A DNA stretch of 13,522 nt from Nitrospirota bacterium. GTDB taxonomy: Bacteria > Nitrospirota > Thermodesulfovibrionia > Thermodesulfovibrionales > UBA6898. The position numbers and the translations under genes were made by a program. Below the pieces are notes generated by a model. It saw only the letters and a list, made by a program, of their open reading frames with translations, was not told the DNA's origin and made no database searches. Location of the stretch: assembly GCA_021787505.1 (NCBI GenBank), contig JAJYLU010000009.1, positions 1-13,522 of the forward strand, in the 5' to 3' direction. How positions within the stretch are numbered: position 1 is the stretch's first letter; each line of letters starts with the position of its first letter. This document shows, one piece after another, positions 5,504 to 12,219 of this stretch.

Positions 5504-5507
<4 letters not shown>

Positions 5508-6805
5508 AGATAGTGATTAAAAATGGACACGTCGTCGACCCTTCCCAGGGCATCGACGGGGTCTGCGATCTGGTGATGGAAGACGGAAAGATCAAAGAAG
5601 TGAAAAGTGAAAAGTCAAAGGGTAAAGGTCAAAGGCATGAAAACAACAGGGGAACAAAAGAGATCGATGCGTCAGGGAAACTCGTTCTTCCGGGTCTCGT
5701 AGATCTCCATGTACATCTCCGGGAGCCGGGCTACGAGTATAAGGAGACGATCCGGACCGGGACCGCGGCCGCGATCAGAGGCGGAATTACCTCGCTCTGC
5801 TGTATGCCGAATACGAACCCCGTCAATGACAATTCAAGTGTGACTGAGTTCATCCTGAAGAAAGCTGCCTCTGAAGGGGCGTGCCGGGTATTTCCGATAG
5901 GCGCCATTACCAAGGGACAAAAAGGCGAGGAACTCGCCGAGATGTCGATCATGCACGAGGCGGGATGCGTCGCTTTTTCTGATGACGGCAGGCCGGTCAC
6001 GGACAGCCTGATGATGCGGCGGGCGATGGAGTATTCGAGGATACTGAAAGTGCCTCTTATTTCGCACTGCGAAGATCTCGCATTGTCCGCGGGCGGAGTG
6101 ATGCAGGAGGGGTTGCTGTCGGTGACGCTCGGGCTCAAGGGCATCCCGCCGCAGGCAGAAGAGGTCATGGTGGCAAGGGACATCGCACTGGCTGAACTCA
6201 CGGGCGGCAGGCTGCATATCGCCCACGTGTCGACCGAAGGATCGGTGGCGCTTATCCGGTCCGCGAAGAAGCGCGGCATGGCCGACGTTACGGCAGAGAC
6301 CTGCCCCCATTATTTCAGTATCACCGAGGAGGCTGTCGGCAGCTATGACGCCAACGCGAAGGTGAATCCGCCGCTGAGGAGCAGAAAGGATGTCGAGGCG
6401 ATAAAGCAGGGGCTCCATGACGGGACGATAGATGTGATTGCCACTGACCACGCACCCCACCACAGAGACGAAAAGCTCGGAGAATTCGACGTTGCGCCGT
6501 CCGGGATTTCGGGACTCGAAACGTCGCTGGGTCTGAGCATGAGACTCGTGGATGAAGGCGTGCTCACATACTCCGGACTCGTCGAAAAGATGGCCTTGAA
6601 ACCCTCCGGTATCGTCGGGATCGACCGGGGCACCCTGAGGCCGGGTGCCGAGGCGGACGTTGTTGTGGTCGACTGCTCCAGGGAATACAGGGTCGACGCC
6701 GGGGAGTTTCTCTCGAAAGGAAAAAATACTCCCTTTGACGGATGGGCGCTCTCCGCTAAACCGGTGCTCACAATTTCTCTTGGAAGGATACACGAATGGG
6801 AATGA
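5504..6805 (+). CDS. pyrC: dihydroorotase, type I
   Basis: A 433-residue metal-dependent amidohydrolase that cyclises N-carbamoyl-aspartate to dihydroorotate. Metal and active-site motifs are intact: [10 protein letters not shown] (H69, H71), FSDDGRPV (159-165, the type I bridging aspartate), SHCED with H188, HIAHVST with H241, TAETCPHY (263-270) and ATDHAPHH with D315. The presence of all ligands argues for an active enzyme rather than a PyrC' pseudo-subunit. An atypical lysine-rich segment at about 34-52 lies between the GKIKEV strand and [11 protein letters not shown]. There, about nine residues are usual (compared from memory with Aquifex), and here there are about nineteen, encoded by a 7-bp tandem repeat. 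The start is coupled to pyrB (ATGA) and the stop overlaps carA. Confidence 0.97.
5600..5641 (+). repeat. 7-bp tandem repeat inside pyrC
   Basis: Six degenerate heptamers in register: two exact GTGAAAA, then GTCAAAG, GGTAAAG, GTCAAAG and GCATGAA. They encode a basic segment (about residues 33-46) in a loop before the metal-site barrel and keep the reading frame open. Confidence 0.6.
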
Positions 6806-8007
6806 AGGCGTTGTTGGTCCTTGCCGACGGAATGGTCTTCGAAGGCAGGGGGTTCGGAGCGGAAGGAGAAACGATAGGGGAGGTGGTCTTCAATACCTCG
6901 ATGACGGGTTATCAGGAGATACTGACCGATCCGTCTTATAAAGGGCAGATCGTGACGATGACCTACACCCAGATAGGCAACTACGGGATAAACGAAGAGG
7001 ACATCGAATCCGCGGGCGGAATAAAAGCGGAGGGGTTTGTCGTGAAAGAGGGATGCGATTTCCCGAGCAACTGGCGGTCCTCCGGAACCCTGGCGGAATA
7101 TATGAAGAAGAGCGGGGTCGTGGGTATCCAGGGGATAGACACGAGGGCGCTGACGAGACACCTGAGGAACCACGGCGCCCAGATGGGCATTATCTCGACC
7201 GCGGATACCGATCCCTGGCTTCTCCTCGGGAAAGTAAGGGCCCATCCCGGGATATCGGCCTTCGATCTCGTAAAAGACGTCACGACGAAGGAAAGGTACC
7301 GGTGGACCGAAGGCTGCTGGAAATGGTGCACGGAAGAGGTGAAGAGCCTGAAGAGAGAAGTCAGGGATAAGGAGTCAGGAGTCAGGGACAAGAAAAGCAC
7401 TGAATCGGACCCTTCGCGCCTAACGCCCCGCTCCTCACTTTCCGTCGTCGTCTATGATTTCGGGATCAAGTTCAATATACTGAGGAACCTTGTCGAGGCA
7501 GGTTTCGACGTGACAGTCGTCCCCGCCCAGACGCAGGCGGAGGCTGTGCTAGAAACGGACCCCGACGGCATAATTTTGAGCAACGGCCCAGGCGACCCCC
7601 AGACGGTCACCTATGCTATAGAGGCGGCGAAAAGGCTGATCGGGAAAAAGCCGATATTCGGGATATGCCTCGGCCACCAGATCCTCGGCTTGGCGATGGG
7701 CGGCAGGACGTACAAACTTAAATTCGGCCACCACGGCGGCAACCATCCGGTGAAAGACCTGGCCACTGACAGGGTCGAGATCACCTCGCAGAACCATAAC
7801 TACTGCGTCGACATCAGGAGCCTCGGCAGCAAGGTAAGGCTGACCCATACGAACCTTTACGACGGGACCGAAGAGGGGATGAGTCATCTGGAATATCCTG
7901 TCTTTTCGGTGCAGCACCATCCCGAGGCAGGTCCCGGACCTAACGATTCGGCCCACCTGTTCAGGAGGTTCAGGGATATGATAAAAAACGGCGGGACATG
8001 GCAATAA
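6796..8007 (+). CDS. carA: carbamoyl-phosphate synthase small (glutaminase) subunit
   Basis: A 403-residue subunit that hydrolyses glutamine and channels ammonia to CarB. The N-terminal CarA domain contains [16 protein letters not shown] (33-48). The C-terminal class I glutamine amidotransferase domain has the nucleophile C291 in FGICLGHQ and H375/E377 in QHHPE. The E. coli catalytic residues (C269, H353, E355) are offset by exactly +22, whereas S47 aligns at 47, so a single net 22-residue expansion lies between. It fits the odd charged linker at about 181-215, encoded by small repeats. The ATG at 6796 is preferred over the ATG at 6802 because GGAAGGA (6782-6788) is seven bases upstream of the former. 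It overlaps pyrC by 10 bases and the next gene by 10. Confidence 0.97.
7352..7444 (+). repeat. purine then pyrimidine heptamer repeats inside carA
   Basis: Heptamers in register from 7359: AGTCAGG, GATAAGG, AGTCAGG, AGTCAGG, then GACAAGA. After a short spacer the sense strand switches to pyrimidine-rich heptamers (CGCCTAA at 7417, CGCCCCG, CTCCTCA, CTTTCCG ending 7444). The whole resembles a degenerate inverted arrangement. It encodes the extra linker between the two CarA domains. Confidence 0.6.
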
Positions 8008-8657
8008 CGAAGGAGAAAGGCTACACGCTTACCAGAAAGGATGGCGCACTCGTCTTCAGGACGTCTCTTTTTTCAGCCGAAAGAGAAAGCGTGCTGCATA
8101 AGGGGATTTACAGTAAGGACTTTGCGTCGGCGCTTTCTTCCCTTTCGATCGCCGGCCTCGTCTACGCCGTCCTGGCCATTAATTATAAACGAACGGTTTT
8201 TTTTCACCTTGTATTTGCGGTCATCTTTATCGGCGGATATCCCCTCTTCAGGGCGTTCGTCTTTAAAGACAGGTTCCTTGAGGCGCTCTTCGATCGCGCC
8301 AGGGGGCTTGCCGAGATATCGGTTACGGGCCTGATAAAGAGGAAAAGCGAGAGCCTTCCCCTTTCGGCGGTGAAGAACGTACTGATAGAAAGCAAGAAGA
8401 TCGGGGTCGAAAACCCTGATGCGGTCGAGTTTGTCGAAAAGATCTCTGCACAGCACGGGACGGTAATCCCGGGTTTCGGCGAGGAGAAGACTTTTTTCAT
8501 GCTGAAGCTGAAGCTTGCCGACGGCACCGACAGAATGATCTATGCGGATACGGAGATGCAGGGCGTGATCGATGCGCATGAGGAGATAAAGAATTTTCTG
8601 GAGGCTGGTCTGGGTGAACGGCAGCACGACAGAGGCGCGACGCTGAAAAATTCTTGA
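7998..8657 (+). CDS. uncharacterised two-TM membrane protein in the pyr operon
   Basis: I do not recognise this 219-residue protein. It starts with a polar N-terminus (1-43). Two adjacent hydrophobic segments follow, about 44-62 ([18 protein letters not shown]) and 67-87 ([18 protein letters not shown]), joined by a short basic turn (NYKR), forming a membrane hairpin. The remaining 130 residues look soluble with alternating beta strands: [45 protein letters not shown], and a final helix [14 protein letters not shown]. This order loosely recalls a PH-like or YcxB-type membrane-anchored domain, but that is only an impression. By the positive-inside rule both ends are probably cytoplasmic. Its ATG overlaps the end of carA by 10 bases, with a GGCGGGA-like site upstream, so it is co-translated with the operon. 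No pyrimidine-enzyme motif is visible; a role in control, transport or localisation is possible but unproven. Confidence 0.85.
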
Positions 8658-8874
8658 ATGACGACTGGATTAAATTATATTCACATGGATGCAGGTGTGA
8701 GTCTGGGTTTCTCTTGAAAAACGGCTGGCTGGCCTCACTGAAGATATTCAAGGTGTCGCAGGCAAGCCTTTTCATCGCCCTGCCTCTGTGCGCTGCGGAT
8801 TCTTTTTCGGTTCATTGGATTTCATGTATAAAATACGATGCGGTCAATAAATAATTCACGTGTGAGAGGTTAAC
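8658..8874 (+). other. 217-base gap before carB, possible internal promoter
   Basis: The tightly overlapping operon is interrupted here. A TATAAA (8827-8832) in an AT-rich stretch could be a -10 box, but no good -35 lies 16-18 bp upstream (TTTTCG at best). A TCAC-GT-GTGA inverted repeat (8856-8865) overlaps the carB Shine-Dalgarno. No terminator-like stem with a T-run is evident. A 66-codon TTG-initiated frame (8654-8854) overlaps the previous stop, but its cysteine-rich product looks unlike a real protein. Confidence 0.4.
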
Positions 8875-8877
8875 TTG
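8864..8877 (+). promoter_or_regulatory. carB: carB ribosome binding site deciding a TTG start
   Basis: GAGAGG (8864-8869) lies five bases before TTG (8875-8877). The TTG gives the standard CarB N-terminus (PKREDI after the initiator). No ATG or GTG sits in frame at a suitable distance. Confidence 0.85.
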
Positions 8878-11800
8878 CCCAAGAGAGAAGACATCAAGAG
8901 CATACTGATCATAGGGTCCGGCCCGATCGTGATCGGCCAGGCCTGCGAGTTCGATTACTCGGGCACCCAGGCCTGCAAGGCCTTGCGCGACGAGGGCTAC
9001 AAGGTCATCCTGGTCAATTCCAATCCTGCGACGATCATGACCGATCCCGAGACCGCGGACGTCACCTACATCGAGCCTCTCACCTCCGAGATCCTCGAAC
9101 TGATTATCAAAAAAGAGCGTCCCGACGCAGTGCTTCCTACCATGGGGGGACAGACAGCATTGAACCTGGCGGTCGAGCTTGCGGAGAAGGGCGTGTTCGA
9201 CAAATACGGGATAGAACTGATCGGCGCTAAGCTCCACGCCATCAAGAAGGCCGAGGACAGGGAACTATTCAAGGAGGCGATGGCGAAGATCGGGCTCGAA
9301 GTCCCAAAGAGTGCTGCGGTCATCAGCTTGAGGGAGGGGATGGATGCGATACGGGAGATCGGTTTCCCTACCATACTCAGGCCGGCATTCACGCTGGGGG
9401 GGACAGGCGGAGGCATCGCGTATAACAAGGAAGAATTTGCGGAGCTGCTCGACAAGGGGCTCAAGCTGAGCCCGGTGCAGCAGGTGCTGATAGAGGAATC
9501 TGCGCTCGGCTGGAAGGAATACGAACTCGAGGTGATGCGCGACAAGAAGGACAACGTAGTGATCGTCTGCTCGATAGAGAACTTCGATCCGATGGGTATC
9601 CATACGGGCGATTCGATCACTGTCGCCCCTGCCCAGACGCTTACGGACAAGGAGTACCAGAGGATGCGGGACGCCTCGATCGCGATCATCAGGGAGATCG
9701 GCGTGGATACCGGTGGATCGAACATTCAGTTTGCGCTGAATCCTGAAGACGGGAGGATGGTCGTCATCGAGATGAACCCCAGAGTATCCAGGAGTTCCGC
9801 ACTTGCCTCGAAGGCGACCGGTTTCCCGATAGCCAAGATCGCGGCAAAGCTCGCCGTCGGGCTCACGCTCGATGAGATCAGGAACGATATCACCAGGGAG
9901 ACGCCCGCCTCATTCGAGCCGACCATAGACTATGTCGTGACGAAGTTCCCCCGCTTTGCCTTCGAGAAGTTCCCGGAGGCCGATCCCGTGCTCACGACCC
10001 AGATGAAGTCAGTAGGCGAGGTGATGTCGATCGGAAGGACATTCAGGGAGTCCCTGCAGAAGTCTCTGAGGAGCCTCGAATCCGGAAGCTACGGTATTGA
10101 AGAAGTCGCCGGCGATCCGGAAAAGATCAAGACAAAGTTGAAGATACCCGGGGTCGAGAGGTTCTGGTATGTCGGCCAGGCGTTCCGCTCCGGGATGAGC
10201 GTGGGGGAGGTGCATGAGCGTACCGCGATAGACCCGTGGTTCCTCTACCATATGAAGGAGATTGTCGAGGCGGAGGGAAGGATCAAAGAGCATGGCGCAA
10301 AGAGCAAAGAGCAAAGTGCAAGAAGAGAAAAGAGAAGCGAAACGGCCCCATTCTCTTTCCCTCCTGACTTATTGCGCGAGGCCAAAGAGAACGGTTTCTC
10401 CGACAAGAGGCTTTCGCAACTGCTTCAGTGCAGCGAGGCCGATATCAGGAACCTTCGGAAGACGCAGGGTATCCGTCCCGTCTACAAGATGGTCGACACC
10501 TGCGCCGCCGAGTTCGAGGCTTATACGCCGTACCTCTATTCGACGTATGAAAGACCTTTTTATAAAATAACGACGGGTAGAGGCGGGGTCACCTCGCCCG
10601 ATGTGGGGGCACAGCATGCCGTGCCCCCACAATCCGCCGCGCCCCAATCCGAGGCGGCCCCCACCGACAGGAAAAAGATCGTGATCCTCGGCTCCGGCCC
10701 CAACAGGATCGGCCAGGGGATAGAGTTCGATTACTGCTGCGTCCATGCGGTCTTCGCGCTCCGCGAACTCGGGTACGAGGCGATCATGGTCAACTGCAAC
10801 CCCGAGACAGTTTCCACCGACTACGATACCTCGGACAGGCTCTATTTCGAACCGCTCACTATCGAGGATGTCCTGAATATCCTCGACGCAGAAAAGCCCG
10901 AAGGCGTGATCGTCCAGTTCGGGGGCCAGACGCCGCTGAAGCTCGCGGTGCCTCTCGAAAGAGAAGGCATACGGATACTCGGGACTTCCCCGGACTCGAT
11001 CGACAGGGCGGAGGACAGGAAGAGATTCAAGACGCTCCTCCATAAGCTCGATCTCCGGCAGCCCGAGAGCGACACCGCGATGTCCGTCGAAGAGGCAGTC
11101 GAAGCGGCGCAGAAGATCGGATATCCGGTAATGGTGAGGCCTTCCTATGTCCTGGGCGGAAGGGCGATGGAGATAGTCTATGACGAGGATTCGATCCGCA
11201 ACTATATGGAGCGGGCCGTGAAGGCTTCGCCGGAACATCCTATCCTTGTGGATAAATATCTCAGCGATGCCGTAGAAGTCGACGTAGACGCGGTCTCGGA
11301 CGGCGCGGACGTGGTGGTCGGCGGCGTGATGGAGCATATTGAAGAGGCCGGCATCCATTCCGGCGATTCCGCTTGTTCCCTCCCGCCCTATTCGCTGAGC
11401 GCCGAAATCACGGAAGAAATCAAGCGTCAGACGAAGGCGCTGGCGAAGGAATTGGAAGTCATCGGGCTTATGAACGTGCAGTTTGCGGTGAAGAAAGAGG
11501 AGATCTATATCCTCGAGGTGAACCCAAGGGCCTCACGGACTGTCCCCTTTGTGAGCAAGGCAACGGGCGTTCCGCTCGCGAAGATAGCGGCAAAGGTGAT
11601 GGCGGGGAAGACGCTGAAGGAGCTCGGGTTCACCACGGAAAAAACAATTGGTCATATCGCGGTAAAGGAGGCTGTCTTCCCCTTCGACAAGTTCCCGGGC
11701 GTCGACACGATACTCGGACCGGAGATGAAGTCTACCGGCGAGGTGATGGGCATAGACGAAGACTTCGGGAGGGCGTTCGCAAAGTCCCAGATCGCGGTGA

Positions 11801-12219
11801 ACAACAGGATACCGCTTTCCGGCAAGATCGTGATCAGCATCAGGGACGAGGACAAGCCCGGGATATGCGATCTCGTCCGGAGGCTCTTTGCCGTCGGTTT
11901 TTCGGTCATCGCCACGAAAGGGACGGCGGCGTTCCTCGACGAAAAGGGGCTCCCGGTGGAGGTGATCAACAAGGTGGCCGAGGGCAGGCCTCACATCGTC
12001 GATCTCATCAAGAACAAGGAGATCGTTTTCGTCATCAATACTGTCAGCGGGGCCCAGGCACAGAAGGACTCTTTTTCTATCAGACGCAGCGCACTCCAGT
12101 ACGGCGTGCCGTATACTACGACGGTCGCTGGGGCACGCGCTGTCGTCAACGCGATCGAATCGCTCAAAAAGAAAACGATCAACATCAAGTCGATCCAGGA
12201 GTATCATCGGAAGGGCTAG
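8875..12219 (+). CDS. carB: carbamoyl-phosphate synthase large subunit
   Basis: A 1114-residue synthetase that makes carbamoyl phosphate from bicarbonate, ammonia and two ATP. It has two homologous ATP-grasp halves. In the first half R129, R169, E299 and N301 fall at the same numbers as in E. coli. In the second, R755, E881 and N883 correspond to E. coli R715, E841 and N843, so a net +40 residues lie between. The excess maps to two odd segments, at about 472-497 in the oligomerisation region and about 563-596 in the linker before the second half (SGPNRIGQG at 607-615). The C-terminal MGS-like allosteric domain (about 980-1114) keeps ATKGTAAFL (1013-1021) and VINTVSG (1053-1059), so nucleotide effector control is plausible. 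The start is TTG. It is separated from the preceding gene by 217 bases, so it may have its own promoter. Confidence 0.97.
10297..10365 (+). repeat. 7-bp tandem repeat and inverted purine/pyrimidine tract inside carB
   Basis: Four heptamers in register: GCAAAGA (10297), GCAAAGA, GCAAAGT, GCAAGAA. A purine tract follows (to 10336) whose end AAAGAGAA (10329-10336) is complementary to TTCTCTTT (10351-10358). It encodes a lysine/arginine/serine-rich segment (about residues 475-495) in the CarB oligomerisation region, where E. coli CarB is about 20 residues shorter. Confidence 0.6.
10582..10631 (+). repeat. two tandem palindromes in the CarB interdomain linker
   Basis: First unit 10582-10598: GGCGGGGT / ACCTCGCC arms around a single C (one G-T wobble). 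Second unit 10602-10631: TGTGGGGGCAC (10602-10612) and GTGCCCCCACA (10621-10631) are perfectly complementary over 11 bp, and the centre holds GCATGC. Overall 14 of 15 position pairs match. It looks like a mobile palindromic element inserted in frame (protein [10 protein letters not shown]). I recall similar GGGGCAC...GTGCCCC elements dispersed in other bacterial genomes, without being able to name the family. Confidence 0.75.

Follow-up and report, generated by a model that had tools for sequence, protein, structure and literature searches.

The window analyzed here, that is the whole stretch of 13,522 nucleotides, comes from a Nitrospirota genome (contig C371) of 2.2 Mb in 393 contigs, 67% complete, and contains in this order a gene with a phosphoribosyltransferase domain, which is probably pyrR-like, pyrB, pyrC, carA, a gene without Pfam match, and carB. 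The nearest named relatives of its CarA belong to the Nitrospirae assemblies L014 (97%) and L013 (93%), followed by other Nitrospirae, Nitrospira, and Thermodesulfovibrionales records. The gene in the interval between carA and carB (7998–8657) encodes 219 residues and has tblastn relatives in 35 of the 122 loci, own copies counted. The three host genes and the four repeat-derived inserts they contain are listed in Table 1.

Table 1. Host genes and repeat-derived inserts in the window (TRF, Tandem Repeats Finder; G003, a relative of the same genus).
Feature	Position	Strand	Description	Evidence
pyrC	5504–6805	+	Dihydroorotase, host gene	Pfam Amidohydro_1, DHOase
carA	6796–8007	+	Host gene	Pfam CPSase_sm_chain, GATase
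carB	8875–12219	+	Host gene	Pfam CPSase_L_D1, D2, D3, MGS
pyrC site	5587–5635	+	N-terminal loop of dihydroorotase; period-7 array of AAGTGAA/AAGTCAA type units	TRF period 7 (5598–5619, 5610–5635); lag-7 run
carA site	7330–7444	+	Insert between N-terminal and glutaminase domains	84-bp difference from the empty G003 site; TRF period 7 (7359–7386)
carB site 1 (carB1)	10276–10365	+	Oligomerization domain; GCAAAGA-type array	TRF period 7 (10284–10334); lag-7 run; genus comparison
carB site 2 (carB2)	10600–10635	+	36-bp palindromic insert between the CarB halves	Absent in G003; multicopy palindrome

Inserts of the window and their structural setting

The first-pass annotation had described repeat-derived, in-frame expansions at four sites of pyrC, carA and carB, three of them with a 7-bp period, and this description is borne out: Tandem Repeats Finder returned 14 rows for the window, among them period-7 arrays in all three genes, the fourth insert is a palindrome, and the host reading frames are open throughout. 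When runs of at least 15 matches in 21 positions were counted, the three genes contained three runs at lag 7 compared with a mean of 0.022 after shuffling, and none of 500 codon shuffles reached three; the same threshold gave one run each at lags 5 and 6 and none at lags 4 and 8–13. Raising it to 16/21 leaves two lag-7 runs, so that the carA array is the weakest. The carA insert consists of a left arm of AGTCAGG-type units (about 7359–7388), a spacer, and a C/T-rich right arm (about 7414–7444) that looks inverted as judged by eye. The carB2 insert falls between residues 549 and 552 of the E. coli carbamoyl phosphate synthetase (CPS) chain in the alignment, and its 28-bp palindrome GTGGGGGCACAGCATGCCGTGCCCCCAC (10603–10630) is one of five pattern matches genome-wide.

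Two of the quantitative claims concerned the shift of residues flanking the inserts. The offset of +22 in CarA holds, C291 being aligned with E. coli residue 269. For CarB, a shift of +40 between E. coli residues 301 and 715 had been proposed; the alignment shows no offset up to about residue 312 and +40 from query residue 694 (E. coli 654), but the figure is a net one that includes one-residue gaps outside the inserts. As for pyrC, the repeat expansion is real but is not additional with respect to near kin, since the array is present in all four genus members compared.

The placement of the inserts in loops or linkers agrees with the AlphaFold2 models of CarA and CarB, the two proteins modelled, in which much of the inserts is of low confidence. 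In CarA, pLDDT values below 50 are found at residues 181–188 and 195–212, corresponding to the insert region, and also at 380–382; in CarB they are found at 487–492 (carB1) and 563–588 (carB2), and away from the inserts at 338–346, 544–547, 760–762, and 936–950. On its left side, the carB1 insert instead prolongs a predicted helix (454–484). The inserts evolve under relaxed, not neutral, constraint, with dN/dS values of 0.26–0.35 as opposed to 0.07–0.10 elsewhere; values below 1 indicate that some constraint on the protein remains.

Empty sites in the genus and related repeats in the genomes

Comparison of the sites involved the window of the source genome (G000) and three relatives of the same genus, G001 (L014), G002 (L013) and G003 (L123); a further member, G004, was left out. 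Presence and absence vary among these close relatives: G000, G001, and G002 carry inserts at carA (28 codons), carB1, and carB2 (the 36-bp palindrome), and all three inserts are missing from G003, with no obvious target-site duplication, by eye, at its empty sites. The carB1 insert moreover lacks 21 bp on its left side in G001 and 21 bp on its right side in G000, the latter being held by both G001 and G002; each of these indels corresponds to three 7-bp units and leaves the reading frame intact. Among G000–G002 the carB2 palindrome varies on both arms in ways that maintain the pairing, save for one mismatch in the window copy.

This palindrome is multicopy. Among the 13 genomes searched, 5 copies were found in G000, 4 in G001, 5 in G002, 1 in G004, and 7 in G005, and none in G003 (with up to 2 mismatches allowed) or in the 7 further genomes. 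The 7 copies of G005, spread over several contigs, represent a variant with a centre that is mostly GGCGCGCC. Most copies carry GTAG, the window copy GTGG; in the full palindrome this tetranucleotide forms a GTAG...CTAC pair, meaning that the tag is not unpaired unless the element is a head-to-head dimer. Matches to the Y1 transposase family PF01797 occur in G000–G003, thus including G003 with its lack of palindrome copies.

Lag runs were also counted in the source genome at large, represented by 59 of its 393 contigs plus the window. A threshold of 18/21 gave too few runs to compare, and 16/21 was therefore used. In 562 kb, window included, 18 runs at lag 7 were found, 5 in non-coding and 13 mostly in coding DNA; lags 4, 5, 8, 10, 11, and 13 gave 0–4 runs each, and lags 6, 9, 12, and 15 gave 8, 6, 13, and 7 runs, mostly coding. 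Since lags that are multiples of three are also common, period 7 stands out at the linkers and relative to lags not divisible by three, but not overall. Of the repeats in the inserts, the palindrome, the AGTCAGG unit, and the AAGTGAA unit recur elsewhere in the genome, the last at many other positions (its reversed control is void, the unit being identical when read backwards). Recurrence is not shown for the GCAAAGA unit, which has just 4 matches outside the window versus 3 in the control; this family is not shown to be abundant, as 3 of its 7 matches are the window itself.

The genes that host arrays in the source genome include a BadF/HgdB-type activase and a tRNA synthetase. The activase (L137:3882–8258, 1458 residues) carries three period-7 array sites, at codons 301–325, 598–625, and 1045–1056, all outside the best Pfam stretches (330–582, 730–941, and 954–1030; a second BadF stretch is unplaced), and inverted arms are visible by eye at two of the three. 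In relatives, the hosts include radical-SAM, CheB, RecG, adenylosuccinate lyase, and cobalamin genes, although some matches only touch gene ends. With unrelated genes holding arrays, the repeat process is not confined to one pathway. The samples taken from relatives were in part limited: for G002, 20 of about 90 contigs were sampled, with a maximum of 20 kb from each, and G012 was represented by 0.4 of 2.25 Mb, in which few arrays were found (4 in CDS and 4 in non-coding DNA).

The three genes are nevertheless enriched. We compared them with other CDS, defined as long ORFs and not by curated annotation, in loci L015–L046 (32 loci, mostly labelled Nitrospirae) and in the more distant loci L047–L092, some of which are Nitrospirae; the source genome was left out because it had been chosen for its inserts. 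In the closer set, lag-7 runs number 34 in 151 kb of pyrC/carA/carB versus 18 in 349 kb of other CDS, a per-base ratio of 4.4 (binomial p 1.7e-7, runs being taken as independent; genome-level sign test 14 to 2, p 0.002), and 14 further runs lie in 46 kb of non-coding DNA. Taking lags 7 and 8 together, the counts are 54 in the three genes versus 22 in other CDS (sign 17 to 2). Four of the 18 runs in other CDS lie in two dihydroorotate-dehydrogenase-B-type genes, which also belong to pyrimidine synthesis, and one lies in the C-terminal half of a split carB (L043) counted under this heading. On the other hand pyrB, located in the same operons, has no period-7 and one period-8 run. In the distant set the enrichment is weak (21 runs in 233 kb versus 19 in 437 kb, p 0.016; sign 10 to 4, p 0.09). 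The proposed clustering in one pathway is thus retained as a per-base enrichment in the closer relatives and not as an exclusive association, given the arrays of unrelated genes and the near-empty pyrB.

Identical linkers and different sequences across species

PyrC, CarA, and CarB were aligned over loci that encode CarA relatives, 80 named and 30 others including the window's own; genes with less than 60% coverage or with a stop in the matched stretch were excluded. Runs of at least 17 matches in a 21-base window were then counted in 83 pyrC, 97 carA, and 65 carB genes, after removal of second copies (L002, L012, L093, L094, L095) and of genes sharing an exact 200-base stretch; same-genus relatives were kept, and the genes are therefore not independent. 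Lag 7 gives 62 runs (11 in pyrC, 26 in carA, and 25 in carB) and lag 8 gives 23 (6, 6, and 11, respectively). In the same genes, lags 4, 5, 11, and 13 give none, and lags 6, 9, 10, and 12 give 2, 2, 1, and 1, that is 6 in total. The period-7 and period-8 runs are located at six loop or linker sites, PyrC 30–50, CarA 90–100 and 170–220, and CarB 470–500, 560–590, and 870–880, the only period-7 runs elsewhere being at PyrC 370 and at CarB 410, with a single run each. The phenomenon extends beyond Nitrospirota, as 11 loci of L047–L092, with labels including Deltaproteobacteria, Methylomirabilota, Omnitrophota, Poribacteria, WOR-1, and Margulisiibacteriota, have a period-7 array at the CarA linker. 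In L016, L018, L020, L022, L023, and L027, period 8 is found at the same linkers in place of 7, and L022, L023, and L027 have both. A survey of repeat types at the linkers (window, L013–L046, and L096–L122, duplicates dropped) revealed that other types exist, for example a C-rich/G-rich palindrome translated as PPHPPLAKGG.

The sequences of these arrays were compared by their k-mers for 84 arrays from 39 genomes, with L013, L014, L099, L103, L109, and L111 additionally dropped. Mean similarity is 0.035 for the same site in different genomes (732 pairs) and 0.033 for different sites in different genomes (2661 pairs), as opposed to 0.111 for different sites of the same genome (84 pairs), a value that none of 300 label permutations reached. 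Arrays at one site are thus unlike each other between genomes, and arrays of one genome are alike, which argues for genome-specific pools of repeats and not for ancestral loops; indeed, conservation of the segments across distant relatives, which would have spoken against an insertion process, was not observed.

Openness of the reading frames and folding were examined as well. In 97 coding arrays an average of 2.13 of the three sense frames are open (at least one being so by construction) and 1.12 of the antisense frames, and in 23 non-coding arrays 1.33 of three. An inverted arm within 120 bp accompanies 33 of 143 arrays compared with 7 of 429 random segments, which were unmatched in composition. 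The folding-energy z-score, computed with 12 shuffles per window, is most extreme at the CarB2 linker, with a mean of -3.2 and values below -3 in 12 of 21 genomes; it is -1.7 at CarA 195 and CarB 480, and other bins go down to -1.6.

Two genes deviate from the uninterrupted frame. The carB of L043 (13093–16628) is present as two overlapping ORFs (13093–14889 and 14886–16628), which meet within the period-7 array (14852–14916) of the CarB2 linker; either the array has divided the gene or the assembly has miscounted a unit, and a split caused by the array is not claimed since the two would look identical. In L053 (11347–14543), the carB match shifts frame near residue 59.

Origin of the inserts

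We consider it probable that repeat populations, genome-wide in extent and specific to each genome, supply the inserts, and that those which are in frame and free of stops survive at tolerant loops and linkers. The first-pass annotation had envisaged an active insertion process tolerated at linkers, and the empty sites within the genus, the two 21-bp indels, the similar repeats elsewhere, and the loop or linker placement all point the same way. Two populations would be involved. One consists of short arrays in which a unit of 7 bp, or of 8 bp in some genomes, is repeated in tandem, at times accompanied by a second, inverted arm; the other consists of small palindromes in multiple copies. Such repeats arise or land at many positions of the genome, as shown by the period-specific excess, the other copies, and the empty sites. 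The arrays may be generated by replication slippage in a register of 7 or 8 nt together with fold-back (template-switch) copying, and the palindromes by a REP- or MITE-like route. Units of 7 or 8 bp, genome-specific letters, dispersal, three-unit indels, and some inverted second arms are the observed features on which this proposal is built; its fold-back part is weak, as 110 of the 143 arrays have no clear second arm and the controls were not matched in composition. More likely than selection in the host genes, the generator sets the unit length: if arrays merely grew in genes under selection, frame-neutral units would be expected, and units of 6, 9, and 12 are nearly absent from the three genes. 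An intragenic copy would survive if its length keeps the frame, if no stop is read, and if the loop or interdomain linker can take some 10–40 additional residues, most of them flexible. Of this filter, the placement, the openness, and the relaxed evolution are observed, and selection would be the force behind them. CarA, CarB, and PyrC have several tolerant linkers and would therefore collect inserts repeatedly and in many lineages.

Known systems resemble the inserts in part. In the excerpts of PMC2700814, multicopy elements of Geobacter metallireducens are described as rows of four or five 7- or 8-mers in tandem, with opposite-strand pairs in some classes and one heptamer family both intergenic and intragenic, and binding of IHF/HU-like proteins is proposed. 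The arrays described here share with these elements the tandem 7- or 8-mers and the occurrence between and within genes; in Geobacter, by contrast, there is according to that text one consensus per class in a single genome, interpreted as regulatory sites, whereas here many unit sequences are found in frame and recurrently at homologous linkers of different species. Tandem heptamers, as found here, are also over-represented in cyanobacteria, Xanthomonas, and Beggiatoaceae, mainly in intergenic DNA (excerpts of PMC4692102 and PMC4679880), and PMC6749651 mentions satellite families derived from heptamers. PMC4679880 states that coding regions are where units of a length divisible by three are most likely, contrary to the pattern at the pyrC, carA, and carB linkers, and cites an earlier proposal that 7 nt may be the stretch contacted by DNA polymerase. 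We found no report of recurrent repeat capture at these linkers in the literature searched, many journals being outside its coverage, and nothing relevant on repeats in carbamoyl phosphate synthetase linkers or in Nitrospirae. Palindromic inserts that keep the frame and heptamer arrays within genes are already known, and recurrent capture at these linkers extends them.

A bolder reading, which we regard as unlikely, is that a dedicated generator, independent of sequence and counting 7 or 8 nt, writes tandem and fold-back arrays in several phyla; the linkers would be its lasting record, and hairpins in the coding sequence where domains meet may also adjust folding during translation or split genes. 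Somewhat less likely still is that the inserts are functional, acting as DNA or mRNA hairpins at domain borders (through pausing or co-translational folding) or through a shared effect on enzymes of the pathway. The enrichment of three enzymes of one pathway, the runs in the dihydroorotate dehydrogenase genes, the folding peak at the CarB2 linker, and the paired changes that maintain the carB2 palindrome are consistent with such a role, but palindrome repair or family turnover would also yield paired changes, three of the inserts are absent from a close relative, letters, length, and type vary freely, and arrays occur in unrelated genes while pyrB of the same pathway is nearly devoid of them. 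The shared effect on the enzymes that had been suggested from the window is unsupported.

It is doubtful to a greater degree that all inserts are copies of one transposase-driven palindromic element of REP/RAYT or MITE type. In its favour are the several copies of the carB2 palindrome and the presence of Y1 transposase genes, but the arrays have their period and not their sequence in common, and the Y1 matches of G003 coexist with zero palindrome copies. In the excerpts of PMC3733652, REPs tagged with GTAG or CGTC are also intragenic, perhaps neutral in flexible linkers or loops; the carB2 palindrome resembles the GTAG-tagged elements described there in beginning with GTAG in relatives (GTGG in the window), in being multicopy, and in the paired changes of its arms, and differs from them in its base-paired GTAG and its low copy number. 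The same excerpts describe the Rickettsia palindromic elements (RPE) as small palindromic repeats lying in frame inside genes for functional proteins. The likeness to RPE that had been noted applies to the outcome, namely in-frame inserts in enzymes (known from sequence) that align over their full length, with empty sites in relatives. It does not apply to the source: RPE are defined sequence families of one lineage, whereas the inserts are mostly period-7/8 arrays with letters specific to genome and site, and the same linkers are targeted in several phyla. A single conserved palindromic family was not found, arrays of different genomes being as unlike as background.

That the inserts are ancestral, conserved long loops, repetitive in look alone, is highly improbable: long linkers are common among relatives and the pyrC array is common to the genus members compared, but same-site arrays are no more alike than those of different sites, empty sites exist inside the genus, and periods 7 and 8 stand nearly alone among the lags. 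Artefacts of assembly or binning of short-read metagenomes can be dismissed almost entirely, since, although short arrays are prone to mis-assembly and the carB of L043 is split at its array, the inserts are common to three separate genomes, with ordinary divergence and in frame, and the period-specific pattern runs across dozens of assemblies.

The supply of inserts by genome-specific repeat populations would mean that repeats without homology to each other rewrite protein linkers time and again at the same positions. The six sites, followed over many species, would offer a clean assay for a repeat process with units of 7 or 8, even though the frame-neutral unit lengths 6 and 9 would be expected to have the advantage within genes. 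They also carry a warning, in that the linker sequences of these enzymes hold almost no homology signal.
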